Assembly: GCA_020061125.1 (NCBI GenBank)
Contig: JAGUYV010000492.1
Location: 1-7,949 of the forward strand
DNA length: 7,949 nt
Reading direction: 5' to 3'
Source of the DNA: a bacterium
GTDB lineage: Bacteria; UBP15; UBA6099; DSWB01
The notes beneath the pieces are model-generated. The model saw nothing but the letters and a program-made list of their open reading frames with translations, did no database searches and was not told the DNA's origin. A program made the position numbers and the translations under genes. Positions 9 to 7,075 of this stretch are shown here, piece after piece (position 1 is the first letter of the stretch; each line of letters opens with the position of its first letter).

Positions 9-1868
9 ATGCCCAAACAACAGAAAAAGGCTGACAAGCATGAGACCGGGTACGACAAGTACATCAATTGGAAAATTTTCATCATTCCGGTCGCCCTGTT
101 TTTCGCAATCCTGCTGATGCCCACCGGAAAAGCCATCCGCGATGTGGGCACCGAGTACAGCATGGGACCCAAGACCGTGATCCGGTTCCTGTCCAAAGAG
201 CTGTTCGACGCCAAGACCTCGGACCTGCAGCAATGGCAGTTGCTCACGGTTCAGGTCATGGAAAAGAACATGCGCACCGCGGCGCTGGACAAGGACCGGT
301 TCATGGGCCGCGACGACAAGTGGCTCAAGAAAAACAAGGTCGCGTTCGACAAAAAGAACCTCGAGCGCGCCAAGGAGTTCGTGGGGGGCCTCGGGGACAA
401 GGAATACCGCAGCCTGATGGAGCGCGCCGCGGACGAGCGCATGATCAAGCTGGATTATTCGGATTTAAAAGAAGACGATGTAAAAGCCGCGGACGACGGG
501 ATCTGGAAGCTCAAGGTGGCGCTGGCCATGCTGGTGTTCACCGTGGGCTGCTTCCTCACGGCGTGCATCCCGCTGCCCGCGGTGGCGTTCTGCATCGGCC
601 TCATCGTGGTGCTTACGGGCATCGTGTCGCGCGAGGAAGTGGCGGCCCTGTACTGGAGCGATTCCGTCTGGTTCATCATGGGCAGCCTGATGTTCGCCAC
701 GGCGTTTGTGAAAACCGGGGTGGACAAGCGCATCACCATGCTGTTGTTCAAGCGCCTGGCCGTGCCCAGCGTGGGGGCCATCACCTTCATCATATTGCTG
801 GTGGTGGGGCCTGCGTCCTCGTTCATATCGGACCACGCCCTGGCCGCCATCTTCCTGCCCGTGGCCATCATGCTGTTTCAGGGCAGCCGCAAGCCCGACG
901 GCACGCCGGACCTCGAACTGGCCAAGATGCTCATTCTCACCGTGGCCTGCGCCGCCAACATCGGCGGGCCGGGGTCTCCCTCGGGCGGCGCGCGCAATGT
1001 AATTATGATAACCTATCTCAAGGACATGTTCGGCGTGGACATTTCCTATATTCAATGGCTGACCTACGGCATGCCCTTCGTGATCATCATGATCCCGCTG
1101 ACCTGGCTCTGCATCAAGTTTGCGTTCAAGCCCACGGTCAAGGATCTCACGCCGTCCATGGAACTGCTCAAGTCGGAAACCGACAGCATGGGCCGCTGGA
1201 ACTATACGCAGATCGTGACAGTGGTTGTGTTCCTGCTGACCCTGTGGTTCTGGATGACGGAGCAGACATTCTTTGACAAAGGGTGGTATCCGGTGCGGCT
1301 GGGGGTGGGCGTGATCGCCATCGCCGCGGGCATCGCCTATGTGCTGACCGGCGTGGTGAACTGGCGCGATTATCACGAAAAGGTGGACTGGGGCGTGGTG
1401 TGGCTGTACGCGGGCGCGATCCTGTTCGGCAAAATCCTGGACGAGAGCGGTGGAGCGTACCTCATCGCGCGCACCATGGTGGCGGGCCTGGCGCATGTGG
1501 GCCTGGACCAGGGACTCGGGCTGATCGCAAGCTGCGGCATTCTCACAGGCGGCATCACCCAGCTCATGGCCGACGGCCCGGCCGCGGCCGCGGTGGGGCC
1601 GGTCACGCTGAACATGGCCGGCATGGTGCACCCGGGCACGGTCATGCTGCCCTTCATGGCTATGGCCACGGGCATCTCGGCCAGTTTCGCCTACTGCCTC
1701 ATCATTGGCACGCCGCCCAACGCCATCGTGTACGCCAGCGGCTATCTGGAACCCAAGGACTTCCTGCGCGCGGGCATTCCGCTGTGGATCATCGCGCAAA
1801 TCGTCATGCTTCTCCTGGTCGCGTTTTACTGGCTGCCGCGCGGCTTCGGAAACCTGCCCGGACTCTGA
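9..1868 (+). CDS. SLC13/DASS family anion:Na+ symporter-like transporter, divergent
   Basis: This is an inner-membrane permease of the divalent anion/sodium symporter (DASS, SLC13) family, whose members import dicarboxylates, sulfate or related anions. The 619-residue protein has one membrane segment at about residues 22-39, then a hydrophilic, charged insert of about 125 residues (43-167), then some ten hydrophobic segments from 168 to the C-terminus. The family hallmark GTPPNAIVYASG is intact at 567-578. The two SNT signatures that bind Na+ and substrate carboxylate in characterised members are altered to Ser274-Asp275-His276 and Ala521-Asp522-Gly523, and the first GTPPN-like loop reads NIGGPGSPSGGARN (317-330). 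Substrate and coupling ion are therefore uncertain; sulfate is a guess from the presumed lifestyle. The ATG at 9 has no ribosome site within the 8 visible upstream bases, and the frame is open to the window edge, so a start further upstream is possible. The next gene begins 49 bp downstream, suggesting one operon. Confidence 0.88.
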   Translation: MPKQQKKADKHETGYDKYINWKIFIIPVALFFAILLMPTGKAIRDVGTEYSMGPKTVIRFLSKELFDAKTSDLQQWQLLTVQVMEKNMRTAALDKDRFMGRDDKWLKKNKVAFDKKNLERAKEFVGGLGDKEYRSLMERAADERMIKLDYSDLKEDDVKAADDGIWKLKVALAMLVFTVGCFLTACIPLPAVAFCIGLIVVLTGIVSREEVAALYWSDSVWFIMGSLMFATAFVKTGVDKRITMLLFKRLAVPSVGAITFIILLVVGPASSFISDHALAAIFLPVAIMLFQGSRKPDGTPDLELAKMLILTVACAANIGGPGSPSGGARNVIMITYLKDMFGVDISYIQWLTYGMPFVIIMIPLTWLCIKFAFKPTVKDLTPSMELLKSETDSMGRWNYTQIVTVVVFLLTLWFWMTEQTFFDKGWYPVRLGVGVIAIAAGIAYVLTGVVNWRDYHEKVDWGVVWLYAGAILFGKILDESGGAYLIARTMVAGLAHVGLDQGLGLIASCGILTGGITQLMADGPAAAAVGPVTLNMAGMVHPGTVMLPFMAMATGISASFAYCLIIGTPPNAIVYASGYLEPKDFLRAGIPLWIIAQIVMLLLVAFYWLPRGFGNLPGL

Positions 1869-1917: not shown

Positions 1918-2841
1918 ATGACAGAACCGACCAAACAAATCCGCGTGCTCATTGTGGACGACGAAGAGCGGTTCCGCGAAGCGACGCGGGTCATGCTCGA
2001 ACGGCGCGGGTTCCTTGTGACCGCAGTGGGAGACGGCGTGCAGGCCGTGGACGCCGTGCGCGCGAACGGGTTCGACGCCGTGGTGCTGGACATCAAGATG
2101 CCGCGCATGGACGGGCATGCGGCCCTGGCGGAAATCCGGAGCCTGCGGCCCGGGCTGCCGGTGATCATGCTCACGGGCCACGGCACGCCGCAGAGCATGA
2201 TCACGAGCCTGCAGGGCGGCGTGTTCGACTTCCTGAACAAGCCGTGCGAGCTGGATCTGCTCACGCGCACCATCCGCGCCGCCGCCGAGCGCGGCGGCAA
2301 GCCCGTGTCCGAGCTGGAGCCGCTGGTGCATCATGTGATGGTGCCCCTGTCGTCGTTCAGCAGCATCCGCAGCGACAGGTCCGTGGCCGACGCCGTGGGC
2401 GTGCTCCTGTCCGCATTTTCACAGACGGGAACGCCAACTGTTGCCGAGTCCATGCACCGCTCTATGCTGGTCATGGACGAGAGCAACAATGTGGTCGGCC
2501 TCTTGAGCATGAGCGAAATCCTGTCCGGGCTGCAGCCCGCGTATATGCGCGCACGCATAGACACGCCGCTGCAAAGTTCGCTGCACCTCACGCCGCCGCG
2601 CTACCGCGGCCTGTTCACCATCATGGCCCGCGACCTGCACCGCATCAAAGTCGAGGACCTGATGAGCGACGCGCCGCCCACCATTGACGCCAACGCGACC
2701 CTCATGCACGCGGTCAATGTCATGCAGGATACCGGCATACGCCGCTACCTGGTCCTGGATCTCGGCAAGCCCGTGGGCGTGATCCGCGAGCACGATCTGT
2801 TCTTCGAGTTGAGCCGCATCCTCAAAATCCGGGGCGCGTGA
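1918..2841 (+). CDS. Response regulator with receiver domain and C-terminal CBS-domain pair
   Basis: This 307-residue cytoplasmic protein combines a phosphorylation switch with a nucleotide-binding module. Numbered from the ATG at 1918, the receiver spans about residues 8-122: acidic pocket Asp14-Asp15, phosphoacceptor Asp58 in LDIKMPRMDG, Thr86 and Lys108. All key residues are present, so it should accept phosphate from a histidine kinase, but none is encoded nearby. The C-terminal half holds two CBS motifs, the first from about 133 (VMVPLSSF) to about 205 and the second from about 245 (VEDLMSDAPPTI) to 300. CBS pairs typically bind AMP, ATP or S-adenosyl compounds and often regulate channels, transporters or enzymes. 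No DNA-binding domain is present. It sits 49 bp behind a DASS transporter, so control of that permease by direct contact is plausible, but this is an inference. The alternative start at 1894 would add eight residues. Confidence 0.92.
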   Translation: MTEPTKQIRVLIVDDEERFREATRVMLERRGFLVTAVGDGVQAVDAVRANGFDAVVLDIKMPRMDGHAALAEIRSLRPGLPVIMLTGHGTPQSMITSLQGGVFDFLNKPCELDLLTRTIRAAAERGGKPVSELEPLVHHVMVPLSSFSSIRSDRSVADAVGVLLSAFSQTGTPTVAESMHRSMLVMDESNNVVGLLSMSEILSGLQPAYMRARIDTPLQSSLHLTPPRYRGLFTIMARDLHRIKVEDLMSDAPPTIDANATLMHAVNVMQDTGIRRYLVLDLGKPVGVIREHDLFFELSRILKIRGA

Positions 2842-2869
2842 CATCCCGGCTTCGAACCATAGAATCCGC

Positions 2870-2923
2870 GCGCGGGCGTCCGGCAGCCGTCACAGGCGGG
2901 CCTGGCGCCCGCGCAGCGGTTTT
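2870..2923 (+). terminator. Candidate intrinsic terminator after the receiver-CBS gene
   Basis: GCGCGGGCG (2870-2878) is the exact reverse complement of CGCCCGCGC (2906-2914), a 9-bp GC stem that can extend by a U-G and a C-G pair. TTTT follows at 2920-2923 after five other bases. The loop is long (about 23-27 nt) and the T-run short, so efficiency is uncertain. A smaller hairpin (2896-2901 with 2907-2912) uses the same right arm and would compete. The position, 28 bp after a stop codon and before a new promoter, fits termination. Confidence 0.38.
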
Positions 2924-2990: not shown

Positions 2991-3006
2991 TGGCATGAAT
3001 ATTGCT
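2991..3006 (+). promoter_or_regulatory. Sigma-54 (RpoN) -24/-12 promoter
   Basis: TGGCATGAATATTGCT matches the RpoN consensus TGGCAYG-N4-TTGCW at every defined position, with GG (2992-2993) and GC (3004-3005) separated by the required 10 bases. Transcription would start near 3017, giving a leader of about 65 nt before the ATG at 3082. An A-run and a T-run (about 2971-2984) lie just upstream. An 8-bp palindrome, CGCATGCG (3046-3053), lies in the leader. No enhancer-binding AAA+ activator is encoded in the window, and I could not identify an upstream activator site. Confidence 0.8.
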
Positions 3007-3066
3007 TTTCATGAGGCAGAGCATGACCCGAGAAATCCGACCGGGCGCATGCGATTCCGGCGCGAA

Positions 3067-3072
3067 CAGGAG
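3067..3072 (+). promoter_or_regulatory. Ribosome binding site deciding the start at 3082
   Basis: CAGGAG lies 9 bases before the ATG at 3082. The upstream in-frame ATG at 2995 lies inside the sigma-54 promoter and ahead of the expected transcript start, so it cannot be used from that transcript. Confidence 0.75.
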
Positions 3073-3081
3073 ACTGCCATC

Positions 3082-3606
3082 ATGATCAGACCCAATGAAA
3101 TCCAGAACAATCCGTTTGCGGCGATCCCCGTGTGGCCGCCGCAGCGCCACCTTGCGCCGGTGGCCGGACAGTTGCTCAAGAATTTCCTTTTCAAGACCAT
3201 CGGATATTTCGACTGCGACTATGCCGTGTTCGTGCATGAATCCGTGCGCGCGCGCAACCTGGTTTTCTTCACCATGGCCAGCCGCTCACGCATGGCCCCG
3301 GATGCCGTGGAAATGGCGCGCGGTTCGTTCCTGCTGCCATTCTTCTGCAACGCGCCGCGCCTGGATCTGGATGCGGAAATCGTGACCATCGAGCACTGCA
3401 TGGACGAGCGCGCCGAGGCGCAAGCCCCGGACCCGGACAGCGCCGGCGATTACCGGTATCTGCACCTCATGAACAACGACCATCTGCAGGGCCTGGCGGG
3501 CATCGGCTGTTTCGACAAAGACGGCATGAGCGCAAAAAGCGCCGAATGGAACGAGTACAGCCAGTTCCTTCACTGCTCGGGCGCGGCCCTGCTGCACAGG
3601 CTCTGA
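3082..3606 (+). CDS. Hypothetical protein, GAF-like C-terminus, sigma-54 controlled
   Basis: This is a 174-residue soluble protein that I do not recognise as a named family. It has no signal peptide and no membrane segment. The C-terminal part (about residues 125-174) has a strand, an acidic loop and a final amphipathic helix ending in a leucine-rich stretch (LHCSGAALLHRL). This is the order seen at the end of GAF domains, so a small sensory domain of the GAF/PAS class is the best guess, at low confidence. The middle (about 50-105) is hydrophobic and mixed alpha/beta. Cysteines occur at about residues 45, 92, 107, 145 and 165, without a tight metal-binding spacing. It stands alone: a near-perfect sigma-54 promoter precedes it and a GC hairpin follows, so it is probably a single-gene transcript made when an RpoN activator is engaged. 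Neighbours on both sides are signalling genes. The longer reading from 2995 is rejected because that ATG overlaps the promoter. Confidence 0.8.
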   Translation: MIRPNEIQNNPFAAIPVWPPQRHLAPVAGQLLKNFLFKTIGYFDCDYAVFVHESVRARNLVFFTMASRSRMAPDAVEMARGSFLLPFFCNAPRLDLDAEIVTIEHCMDERAEAQAPDPDSAGDYRYLHLMNNDHLQGLAGIGCFDKDGMSAKSAEWNEYSQFLHCSGAALLHRL

Positions 3607-3612
3607 TTCCGC

Positions 3613-3643
3613 CGCCGCGCGCGTGCGCTCCGCGGCGAAATTT
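3613..3643 (+). terminator. Candidate terminator after the GAF-like gene
   Basis: CGCCGCG (3613-3619) pairs perfectly with CGCGGCG (3631-3637) around an 11-nt loop. AAATTT follows, so the T-run is only three bases. It starts 6 bp after the TGA at 3604-3606, which suits a single-gene sigma-54 transcript. Rho-independent activity would be weak. Confidence 0.35.
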
Positions 3644-3744: not shown

Positions 3745-3772
3745 TTGCCGTTGACGGGATTTTTGTTAAAAT
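3745..3772 (+). promoter_or_regulatory. Candidate sigma-70 promoter for the lipid kinase gene
   Basis: TTGCCG (3745-3750) and TAAAAT (3767-3772) are separated by 16 bases, matching the -35 box at four and the -10 box at five of six positions. The region from about 3750 to 3815 is clearly more AT-rich than its surroundings. Transcription would start near 3779, about 50 bp before the ATG. The better-looking TTGACG at 3751 has no -10 box at a workable distance. Confidence 0.4.
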
Positions 3773-3829: not shown

Positions 3830-4744
3830 ATGGGCAGAAAAATCTATGTGGTGCTGAACGGAAAGGCGGGCAAGGCCGGCCGCTTCGGGCTGGACAACGC
3901 ACAGAAGACCATCCGGGAGGCGTTTCAGAAAGCGGACCCCGCGGTGGAGGTGGATTTCGGAATCACGCAGGCGCCGTTCCACGCGCCCGAGCTTGCGCGC
4001 ACCGCGGCCGAAACCGGGCAGTATTACGCGGTATGCGCGGCCGGCGGCGACGGCACGGTGAACGAAGTGACCAACGGCATGGTGCACACGGGCGTGCCCA
4101 TGGGCGTACTGCCCTGGGGCAGCGGCAATGTCTTCGCCCAGGAAATGAGCATCAGCAACAATGTGGAGGAAGCGGCGCGCCTGGTGCTCGAGGGCAAAAT
4201 CCGCGATGTGGACACCGGGCAGGTGGGCGACCGTTACTACCTGTGGATGCTGGGCATCGGCGTGGAAGCCAAAATCGCGTACTATGTGAACCCCACGATC
4301 AAGAAGTACCTGGGAGTGCTTTCCTATGTGGTGGCCGCGGCGCGCCAGATCTTCGACCCCGGCTACTCGCTCATGCGCATCACACTGGACGAGCAGGAAA
4401 TGACCTTCACCACATTCAACACCATCGTGGGCAACGCCACCAGCTTCGACGGGTTCCTGGGCATCAAATCCAGCTACAGCATCAAGGACGGCTTCCTGGA
4501 TGTGTGCATCCTGCAGAAGAAATCCGTGGGCGGAATCCTTAAACTATTGATCGAGTTCATCAAGGGGCGAAAGGACTACTACCGCTTCATAGACAAGTTC
4601 AGCGCCGCCCACTGCCGCGTCAAGAGCCTGCGCATAGACACCGTGCCCAACGCATACTACCATGTGGACGGTGAAGTCATGGGCATGACGCCCGTGGACA
4701 TCCGGGTCCACGCACAGTCCCTGAAACTCATCTTCCCGGGCTGA
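3830..4744 (+). CDS. Diacylglycerol kinase-family lipid kinase (YegS/DgkB-like)
   Basis: This 304-residue protein belongs to the DAGK catalytic-domain family, which phosphorylates diacylglycerol or related lipids with ATP at the inner face of the membrane. The nucleotide-binding GGDGTVNEV lies at residues 72-80. A second glycine loop, WGSGN (96-100), stands where many relatives have G-T-x-N-D. The C-terminal beta-rich domain carries a DGFLDV segment (about 219-224) and the Asp280-Gly281-Glu282 motif before the final strands. The N-terminal loop reads NGKAGKAG (10-17) in place of the usual NPxSG. Length is normal for the family (about 300). GGAG at 3821-3824 lies 5 bases before the ATG, a good ribosome site. 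It heads a same-strand series with the STAS, receiver-ATPase and CheB genes, the next one 55 bp away. The lipid substrate cannot be read from the sequence. Family assignment is firm; a link to the signalling genes is inference. Confidence 0.92.
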   Translation: MGRKIYVVLNGKAGKAGRFGLDNAQKTIREAFQKADPAVEVDFGITQAPFHAPELARTAAETGQYYAVCAAGGDGTVNEVTNGMVHTGVPMGVLPWGSGNVFAQEMSISNNVEEAARLVLEGKIRDVDTGQVGDRYYLWMLGIGVEAKIAYYVNPTIKKYLGVLSYVVAAARQIFDPGYSLMRITLDEQEMTFTTFNTIVGNATSFDGFLGIKSSYSIKDGFLDVCILQKKSVGGILKLLIEFIKGRKDYYRFIDKFSAAHCRVKSLRIDTVPNAYYHVDGEVMGMTPVDIRVHAQSLKLIFPG

Positions 4745-4757
4745 ACCCAGGCCCGAA

Positions 4758-4769
4758 GCCCGGCCGGGC
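4758..4769. repeat. 12-bp perfect GC palindrome between lipid kinase and STAS genes
   Basis: GCCCGGCCGGGC reads the same on both strands. With GCCCG at 4751-4755 it can also form a 5-bp stem to 4765-4769 around a 9-nt loop. There is no T-run after it, so it is not a standard terminator. It could be an operator or a processing hairpin, or simply reflect base composition. Confidence 0.4.
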
Positions 4770-4799
4770 ACATCATCTCGCGAAAGGACGAAGCGTCCC

Positions 4800-5102
4800 A
4801 TGGAAATAGAAATCACCAGAGACGGCAGCGTCTCCCTGCTCAAGCCTTCCGAGGAAATCCACTTCGACAACTACAAGGAAGTGGAAGCCATCCTGCTCAA
4901 GGAGATTGACGAGGGCGCCAAGGAAGTGGTGGTGGACTTGAGCAATGTCACCACCCTCTACAGCATGACCCTGGGCATGTTCAACAACATCGCGTCCAAG
5001 ATCGCCAAGAAGGGGGGCAAGTTCAGCATCACCAACATCAACAGCGACATCCGCAGAGTGCTCAAGGCCACGCGCCTGGACAAACTCATCCAGATCAAAT
5101 AG
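4800..5102 (+). CDS. STAS-domain protein, anti-sigma-factor antagonist-like
   Basis: This 100-residue protein is a single STAS domain of the SpoIIAA/RsbV type. Such proteins bind a switch kinase (anti-sigma factor) when unphosphorylated and are released on serine phosphorylation. The core strand VVVDLSNVTTL (43-53) runs into Tyr54-Ser55-Met56-Thr57-Leu-Gly. This occupies the place of the classic D-S-[ST]-G loop, with Ser55 in the position of the phosphorylated serine. The Asp and the loop glycine are replaced. The helix after it (58-70), the strand GKFSITNI (73-80) and the final helix with TRLDKLIQI complete the fold. AAAGGA at 4783-4788 lies 11 bases before the ATG. The gene encoding a receiver-linked SpoIIAB-type ATPase follows 119 bp downstream, which is the expected partner. 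The target sigma factor or other output is not in the window. Confidence 0.88.
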   Translation: MEIEITRDGSVSLLKPSEEIHFDNYKEVEAILLKEIDEGAKEVVVDLSNVTTLYSMTLGMFNNIASKIAKKGGKFSITNINSDIRRVLKATRLDKLIQIK

Positions 5103-5186
5103 GGACGCGCCGCAGGTTTTTTTCGCGCAACCCGTTTGAACGCGGCCGGAACCGGGAATAGGATACCGGGGAGTGCGCCGCACGCC

Positions 5187-5221
5187 CGGGGCACGCCCCG
5201 CTCGAGGTTCGACCCGAAACC
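5187..5221 (+). promoter_or_regulatory. GC hairpins in the translation start region of the receiver-ATPase gene
   Basis: CGGGG (5187-5191) pairs with CCCCG (5196-5200) around CACG. Directly after it, TTCG (5208-5211) can pair with CGAA (5215-5218), flanked by GG/CC with one bulge, ending at the base before the ATG. The only ribosome-site candidate, GAGG (5204-5207), overlaps the second stem and lies 14 bases from the start. The arrangement suggests weak or controlled initiation; this is inference from base pairing read by eye. Confidence 0.3.
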
Positions 5222-6142
5222 ATGAACACGGACAGAAGTTTCCACATCCTCATCGTTGACGACTCCCGCACGGTCCGCGCGTTCTTCGCCGATATCTTCG
5301 GCGACACACCCGGCTTTCGCCCGGACACCGCAGCCTCGGGCGCCGAGGCCATCGAGATCCTCAAACAAAACCACCTCACCGACAAAGACCCTTACGACTT
5401 CCTGCTCACAGACATCAACATGCCCGAAATGGACGGCTTCGCGGTCATTGACGCAGTCAAGGAACTCGACCCAGAACTCAAAACCGGCATGATCACCGGC
5501 TTCAATGTGGACGATTACATCAAGATGGCGCTGGACAAGGGCGTGTTCAACATCATCTGCAAAATGGACGACCCCGAGGACATCGTGCGCACCGTGCACA
5601 ACCTCATCACCGGCGATCACATCTTCGGGCTTGGCAATTATGTGGAGCCGGGCGCGGAAATCATCCGCATCCAGGTCACGGACACCGCGGCGCTCAAGGG
5701 CGCGGTGAACCGCATCATGGACGCGGCCGAGTCCAAGCTCAACGAGGACAAGCTCTACGGCCTCAAGACCGGGCTGGTGGAAATGGGCACCAACGCCATC
5801 TACCACGCCTACGGATATGAAAAAGGCTCCCAGGTCACGCTCAAGGAATCCGAGGAAGTGGCCCTGGAATACGCCATGGATTCCGAAAAGCTCGCGGTCG
5901 CCATTCTCGATGTGTCCGGCACCCTCACCAAGGAACGCGTGCTCACCCAGCTCAACAAGGGCATCAACCCCACGCACGAAGACCTCATCGCCGCGGGCGG
6001 CCGCGGCATCTACCTCACCCGCTTCCTGTGCGACAAGGTCGTGGTCAACCTGGCCAGCAGACAGCGCACCGAGGTCATCCTCATCATGAACTTCAGCGAC
6101 GACTACAAAGAAAGCAAGCCCCTGCTCATCAACCAGATCTGA
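5222..6142 (+). CDS. Response regulator with C-terminal SpoIIAB/RsbW-type ATPase (switch kinase) domain
   Basis: This 306-residue cytoplasmic protein joins a receiver (about residues 7-128) to a GHKL ATPase of the anti-sigma-factor serine kinase class (about 150-292). The receiver has Asp13-Asp14, phosphoacceptor Asp64 in LLTDINMPEMDG, Thr92 and Lys114, all intact. The ATPase part shows an N-box with Glu187 and Asn191 (VEMGTNAIYHAYG), a G1 box reduced to Asp230-Val-Ser-Gly233, and a G2 box GGRGI (259-263) followed by the strand-rich end. Glu187 and Asn191 are the usual catalytic base and Mg-binding positions, so kinase activity is plausible. About 20 acidic residues separate N-box and G1. The STAS gene lies directly upstream, so the likely substrate is Ser55 of that protein. 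A phosphorylation signal to Asp64 could control the switch directly. No PP2C phosphatase to reverse the reaction is encoded here. Alternatively the domain may only bind ATP and act by sequestration. Confidence 0.9.
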   Translation: MNTDRSFHILIVDDSRTVRAFFADIFGDTPGFRPDTAASGAEAIEILKQNHLTDKDPYDFLLTDINMPEMDGFAVIDAVKELDPELKTGMITGFNVDDYIKMALDKGVFNIICKMDDPEDIVRTVHNLITGDHIFGLGNYVEPGAEIIRIQVTDTAALKGAVNRIMDAAESKLNEDKLYGLKTGLVEMGTNAIYHAYGYEKGSQVTLKESEEVALEYAMDSEKLAVAILDVSGTLTKERVLTQLNKGINPTHEDLIAAGGRGIYLTRFLCDKVVVNLASRQRTEVILIMNFSDDYKESKPLLINQI

Positions 6143-6301: not shown

Positions 6302-7075
6302 ATGATCCCGAGGGAACGGAACCAGGACGGAGAACCCAAACGAATCCGCGCGCAGGCGGTCACTACCGTGGTGGCCATGGGCGCGTCCATGGGAGGCGCG
6401 GAGGCGCTCGAAAAGGTGCTGTCGGGCCTGTCCGCGGATTGCCAGCCCGTGATCATCGTGCAGCATATCCCCGAAAAACTGGAAGCCGGCCTGGCCAAGC
6501 GCCTGCAAAAGTCGTGCGCGGCGCAGGTGCGCGTGGCTGAAAACGGGGCGCTGCTGCGGCCCGGCCTGGTGCTTGTGGCGCCCGGAGGCGCGCACATGGT
6601 GCTGCGCCGCCGCGGTGCGGATTTCTATGTGGCGGTCAAGGACGGCCCCCAGTTCCATTACCACAAGCCCAGCGTGGATGTGCTGTTCCGCAGCGTGGCC
6701 AAGCACGCGGGCGCAAACGCCGTGGGCGTGCTTCTCACGGGCATGGGCAAGGACGGGGCCGCAGGCCTCAAGCTCATGCGCGACGCGGGCGCAACCACCA
6801 TCGCCCAAAACGAATCCACGAGCCTCATCTTCGGCATGCCCAAGTCCGCCATTGAACTGGGCGCGGCCGCGTTCGTGCTGCCGCTGGAGAAAATCGCGGG
6901 CAAAATCACGGCAGCGTCCTCGGGCGCAAAGCGGCGGGCGCGCCCCGTGTCCGCGGAGCGCAATCTCGATGTCGCGGTTCCGGGCATCCCTCCAGGAACC
7001 CTCAAGCCCCTGTGGATGGCCAATGTGCTCTACAAGGTCAGTTACGAGGGAAAGCGAAAAGTCCTCTTCAACTGA
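6302..7075 (+). CDS. CheB-type protein-glutamate methylesterase domain protein without receiver
   Basis: This 257-residue protein is the catalytic domain of CheB, which hydrolyses glutamate methyl esters on chemoreceptors and can deamidate glutamine. The catalytic triad is visible: Ser29 in MGASMGG (26-32), His55 in IVQHIP (52-57) and Asp151 in LLTGMGKDG (144-152). The substrate-loop signature HKPSVDVLF lies at 121-129. The usual N-terminal receiver and linker are absent; only about 18 polar residues precede the fold. The catalytic domain is therefore not phospho-controlled in cis. A tail of about 55 residues after residue 203 starts with a basic stretch (AKRRARP) and has no family match that I recognise. 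AGGAGG at 6288-6293 lies 8 bases before the ATG, the strongest ribosome site in the window. It is the last gene of the + strand series, 159 bp after the receiver-ATPase gene. No CheR or chemoreceptor is nearby, so the substrate is unknown. Confidence 0.92.
   Translation: MIPRERNQDGEPKRIRAQAVTTVVAMGASMGGAEALEKVLSGLSADCQPVIIVQHIPEKLEAGLAKRLQKSCAAQVRVAENGALLRPGLVLVAPGGAHMVLRRRGADFYVAVKDGPQFHYHKPSVDVLFRSVAKHAGANAVGVLLTGMGKDGAAGLKLMRDAGATTIAQNESTSLIFGMPKSAIELGAAAFVLPLEKIAGKITAASSGAKRRARPVSAERNLDVAVPGIPPGTLKPLWMANVLYKVSYEGKRKVLFN

Follow-up and report, generated by a model that had tools for sequence, protein, structure and literature searches.

The window analysed here, a DNA stretch of 7,949 nucleotides, comprises an entire contig (C147), the ends of which coincide with both window edges. 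The host genome (4.12 Mb) is 79% complete. The relatives used for comparison were six genomes of the same order, and the next nearest genomes share the domain level only. The focus of this study is a short gene without recognizable relatives, hereafter the orphan, which is flanked by transport and signalling genes and preceded by a match to the sigma-54 promoter consensus (Table 1). The first gene, encoding a transporter of the DASS family, begins 8 bases into the contig, so that its upstream partners are out of view. The transporter carries an additional N-terminal segment of about 165 amino acid residues ahead of its symporter domain. Transporter and receiver-CBS protein are encoded by separate genes, and the contig contains neither a kinase of the two-component type nor an enhancer-binding protein (bEBP). 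The first-pass annotation had placed the orphan between signalling genes, which holds for one half only: its next downstream neighbour encodes a lipid kinase, and the STAS and receiver/ATPase genes follow after it.

Table 1 Features of the window in order of position
Feature	Position	Strand	Basis or remark
DASS-family transporter	9-1868		First gene of the window
Receiver-CBS protein	1918-2841		Between DASS transporter and orphan
GC-rich hairpin then short T run, probable terminator of the receiver-CBS gene	2866-2919	+	Inverted repeat; RNA fold
-24 box TGGCATG	2991-2997	+	Exact match
-12 box TTGCT	3002-3006	+	Exact match
Predicted transcription start	3017	+	Inferred from position of the -12 box
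Ribosome-binding site AGGAG	3068-3072	+	Sequence; 9 bases ahead of ATG at 3082
Orphan gene, 174 aa	3082-3606	+	Codon score, GC3, hydropathy, homologue searches
GC-rich hairpin right after the orphan stop codon, weak terminator candidate lacking a T run	3609-3640	+	Fold -19.8 kcal/mol, z -1.9
Sigma-70-like promoter TTGCCG-16-TAAAAT with TG, ahead of the lipid-kinase operon	3745-3772	+	Consensus scan only, 9/12 matches
YegS-type lipid kinase	3830-4744		Next gene downstream of the orphan
STAS protein	4800-5102		After the lipid kinase
Receiver-HATPase protein	5222-6142		After the STAS gene
CheB-type methylesterase, no receiver	6302-7075		After the receiver-HATPase gene
Kdo-transferase gene, end part only		opposite	Last in the window

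The sequence TGGCATGAATATTGCT (2991-3006, forward strand) matches TGGCAYG-N4-TTGCW without a mismatch and is the sole exact match to this pattern within the window. Compared with the strict consensus TGGCACG, it contains one common change (T for C). The GG (2992-2993) and GC (3004-3005) pairs are separated by 10 bp, the spacing characteristic of sigma-54 sites, and hence transcription is expected to start near 3017. The chance expectation for exact matches in the window is 0.0038 if all bases are equally frequent and 0.0035 at the base composition of the window. Earlier statements on the exact match and its GG/GC spacing, on the expected start and the ribosome site, and on a chance rate of 0.004 per window were all reproduced. 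The site is very likely a genuine sigma-54 promoter, textbook and ordinary in type.

Across the genome, 11 exact sites were found against none for the reversed pattern, with 1.8 expected from base composition. Allowing up to one mismatch yielded 64 sites versus 27 for the reversed pattern, a ratio at which weaker matches are not trustworthy. Seven of the 11 exact sites, including that of the window, are located 33-75 bp ahead of a start codon with a ribosome site, against about 0.1 such sites expected by chance on the assumption of 3500-4000 genes and 150-bp upstream stretches. The remaining four lack a sensible placement before a gene, and the motif alone therefore yields false positives. In the whole order (seven genomes), exact matches numbered 32 as opposed to three for the reversed pattern.

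Two of the seven placed sites precede genes for receiver proteins, and one precedes the gene for a histidine kinase adjoining a bEBP. Another two have membrane products as targets, in one case a small protein, in the other a short peptide with a putative secreted protein next in line; an unknown protein of 166 residues and the orphan complete the set. At other genes of the order, the boxes have been kept while most of the flanking sequence diverged: ahead of five members of a family of small membrane proteins in four genomes, one of them with a changed -24 box, and ahead of a STAS gene in two genomes. The membrane proteins (L002, L036, L092, L100 and L105; 119-131 aa, function unknown) start 39-43 bp past the sigma-54 site, which in L036 has one mismatch. 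A conserved site upstream of murC in four relatives (L097, L101, L103 and L104) was discarded as proof; it overlaps a TATAAAT sequence and may instead represent an extended -10 box.

RpoN itself is encoded in the genome (Sigma54_DBD, E 1.9e-33), along with about 14 strong enhancer-binding ATPases recognized by their matches to Sigma54_activat. Sigma-54 sites within 0-200 nt upstream of a start codon have been considered very likely genuine (Francke et al. 2011, PMC3162934). Taken together, genome-wide enrichment, placement, the presence of RpoN and bEBPs, the order-wide counts, the conserved boxes at other genes and this placement criterion make it highly probable that the sigma-54 promoter is real, in agreement with the first-pass annotation. 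The site most probably drives a single short gene, the orphan.

The competing explanation is a chance match, in which case transcription of the orphan would rely on a sigma-70 promoter or on read-through out of the receiver-CBS gene. It could draw on the exact matches located away from gene starts and on a sigma-70-like pair at 2838-2865 (10/12 matches), which could also transcribe the orphan. It has to account, however, for seven properly placed sites where about 0.1 are expected, and for the strong hairpin that lies between this pair and the orphan (RNA fold of 2842-2935: -49 kcal/mol, z -3.5). We consider a chance match very improbable.

Given the strong statistics, we infer sigma-54 control as the first step of the following mechanism. 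RpoN polymerase would wait in the closed state on the -24/-12 boxes until a two-component system signals an NtrC-type enhancer-binding ATPase to melt the promoter. Transcription would begin near 3017, leaving about 65 bases of leader ahead of the start codon at 3082, from which translation would yield a soluble protein of 174 residues, so far found in this genome only. On this reading, a consensus site read from raw sequence would be trustworthy in this uncultured order when it lies ahead of a gene, and the sigma-54 regulon, in which signalling proteins abound in this genome, would gain the orphan as a further member.

A search for enhancer sites within 200 bp upstream of the window site found no palindrome of at least 7 pairs with a spacer of up to 12; several other putative sigma-54 targets likewise have no obvious enhancer palindrome. 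Among candidates for an enhancer motif common to the seven upstream regions, neither the 12-mer CCAGAAACACCC, which recurs at L004, nor a GC-rich stretch in common with L009 withstood correction for 12 comparisons. L004 features the palindrome TGACGGATATCCGTCA about 105 bp upstream of its own site, a good candidate for an enhancer-binding site; nothing comparable was noticed ahead of the window site.

The description of the orphan as a lone gene appears likely, since a hairpin flanks it at either end and its downstream neighbour may have a promoter of its own; a single-gene transcription unit is the simplest reading of the sequence. Alternatively, the sigma-54 transcript may continue into the operon of lipid kinase, STAS and receiver/ATPase genes as its real target, with the orphan as a passenger. 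Orphan and operon share the same strand across a gap of 223 bp, the terminator candidate after the orphan is only weak, and the order of the operon (3830-6142) is maintained in five relatives of the order with 57-70% identity (L057-L061). Against such read-through, a putative sigma-70-like promoter lies in front of the operon, and a scan of two relatives, G005 and G001, found neither an exact nor a one-mismatch sigma-54 site ahead of it. The region of the sigma-70-like promoter shows no conservation in relatives. Read-through as the main function of the promoter is unlikely, and transcription of the orphan alone remains preferred. The operon itself is a conserved partner-switching-like set coupled to a lipid kinase. 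Upstream of it, different lineages carry different genes; the gene directly preceding the lipid kinase differs in the relatives examined and is never the orphan.

The orphan is a real coding gene. Of the six frames, only its own (3082-3606) scores positive for codon use (+0.44 bits per codon); among the seven genes it ranks last by this score, and the GC3 of 0.81 is like that of its neighbours. A longer version of 203 aa, starting at 2995, was discarded because its first codon falls within the promoter and ahead of the expected transcript start. The encoded protein (19.6 kDa, pI 5.6, five cysteines) has no apparent signal peptide or transmembrane stretch in hydropathy analysis and hence looks soluble. 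Homologues were detected neither in its own genome nor in 385 other genomes, GTDB contigs, viral contigs, plasmids, Pfam, NCBIfam, PHROGs or PDB sequences, which strongly supports the orphan status already proposed. In view of these searches, and of the changing gene upstream of the kinase in relatives, the orphan is considered lineage-restricted.

A single-sequence AlphaFold prediction resulted in a poor model (mean pLDDT 36.5). By eye and in this low-confidence model, the order of elements is helix-strand-strand-helix-strand-strand-helix. This order fits the GAF fold, and the orphan might accordingly belong to a known sensor family and have evolved fast within it, for instance as a lone GAF-like domain. 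Compared by profile with 15 GAF domains encoded in this genome, however, the orphan reached a probability of 0.1%, no better than shuffled sequences, whereas left-out GAF domains scored 90-99% in the same comparison; Pfam and NCBIfam are also devoid of any match to the orphan. Membership in a known sensor family is therefore rather doubtful. The earlier proposal of a candidate regulatory component gained no support: no domain was recognized, the structure model was unusable and the GAF test failed, leaving the neighbouring genes as its basis. As a working guess from these neighbours and from the sigma-54 company in the genome, the orphan could tentatively be seen as a cytosolic protein with an accessory or sensor role in a signalling or transport module.

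A comparable module is present on another contig of the same genome (C338). It holds two exact sigma-54 sites, of which TGGCATGAATATTGCA is identical to the window site in 15 of 16 positions, differing in the last base only. One site heads a histidine kinase-bEBP pair, the other a receiver-kinase-receiver/DASS transporter-receiver-kinase-receiver-porin set. The DASS transporter of C338 is fused to a receiver and shares 32% identity with the window transporter, and both accompany receiver genes. In contrast, the orphan is missing from the C338 module, and in the window the transporter is unfused and kinase and bEBP are absent from the contig. By analogy, this suggests that the transporter and receiver genes of the window, together with the orphan, belong to a sigma-54-linked module similar to that of C338. 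A further reading, in which the orphan founds a new lineage-restricted regulatory family that would link sigma-54/two-component input, as in C338, to the neighbouring partner-switching operon of STAS and receiver/ATPase proteins, appears quite improbable.

With known TGGCAYG-N4-TTGCW promoters the window site shares the boxes, their spacing, the location ahead of a gene that has a ribosome site and the coexistence of RpoN and bEBPs in one genome. It differs in that no enhancer site was recognized and that activity is predicted from the sequence. In the sigma-54 regulome of Desulfovibrio vulgaris (PMC4641369), the consensus reads tGGcacg / tTGCt and hypothetical proteins are among the predicted targets, both resembling the case described here; the D. 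vulgaris sites are conserved among relatives. The C338 module corresponds to positions 1203-13632 of L055, where a divergent gene resembling those for glycyl radical enzymes follows at 13745-16312.
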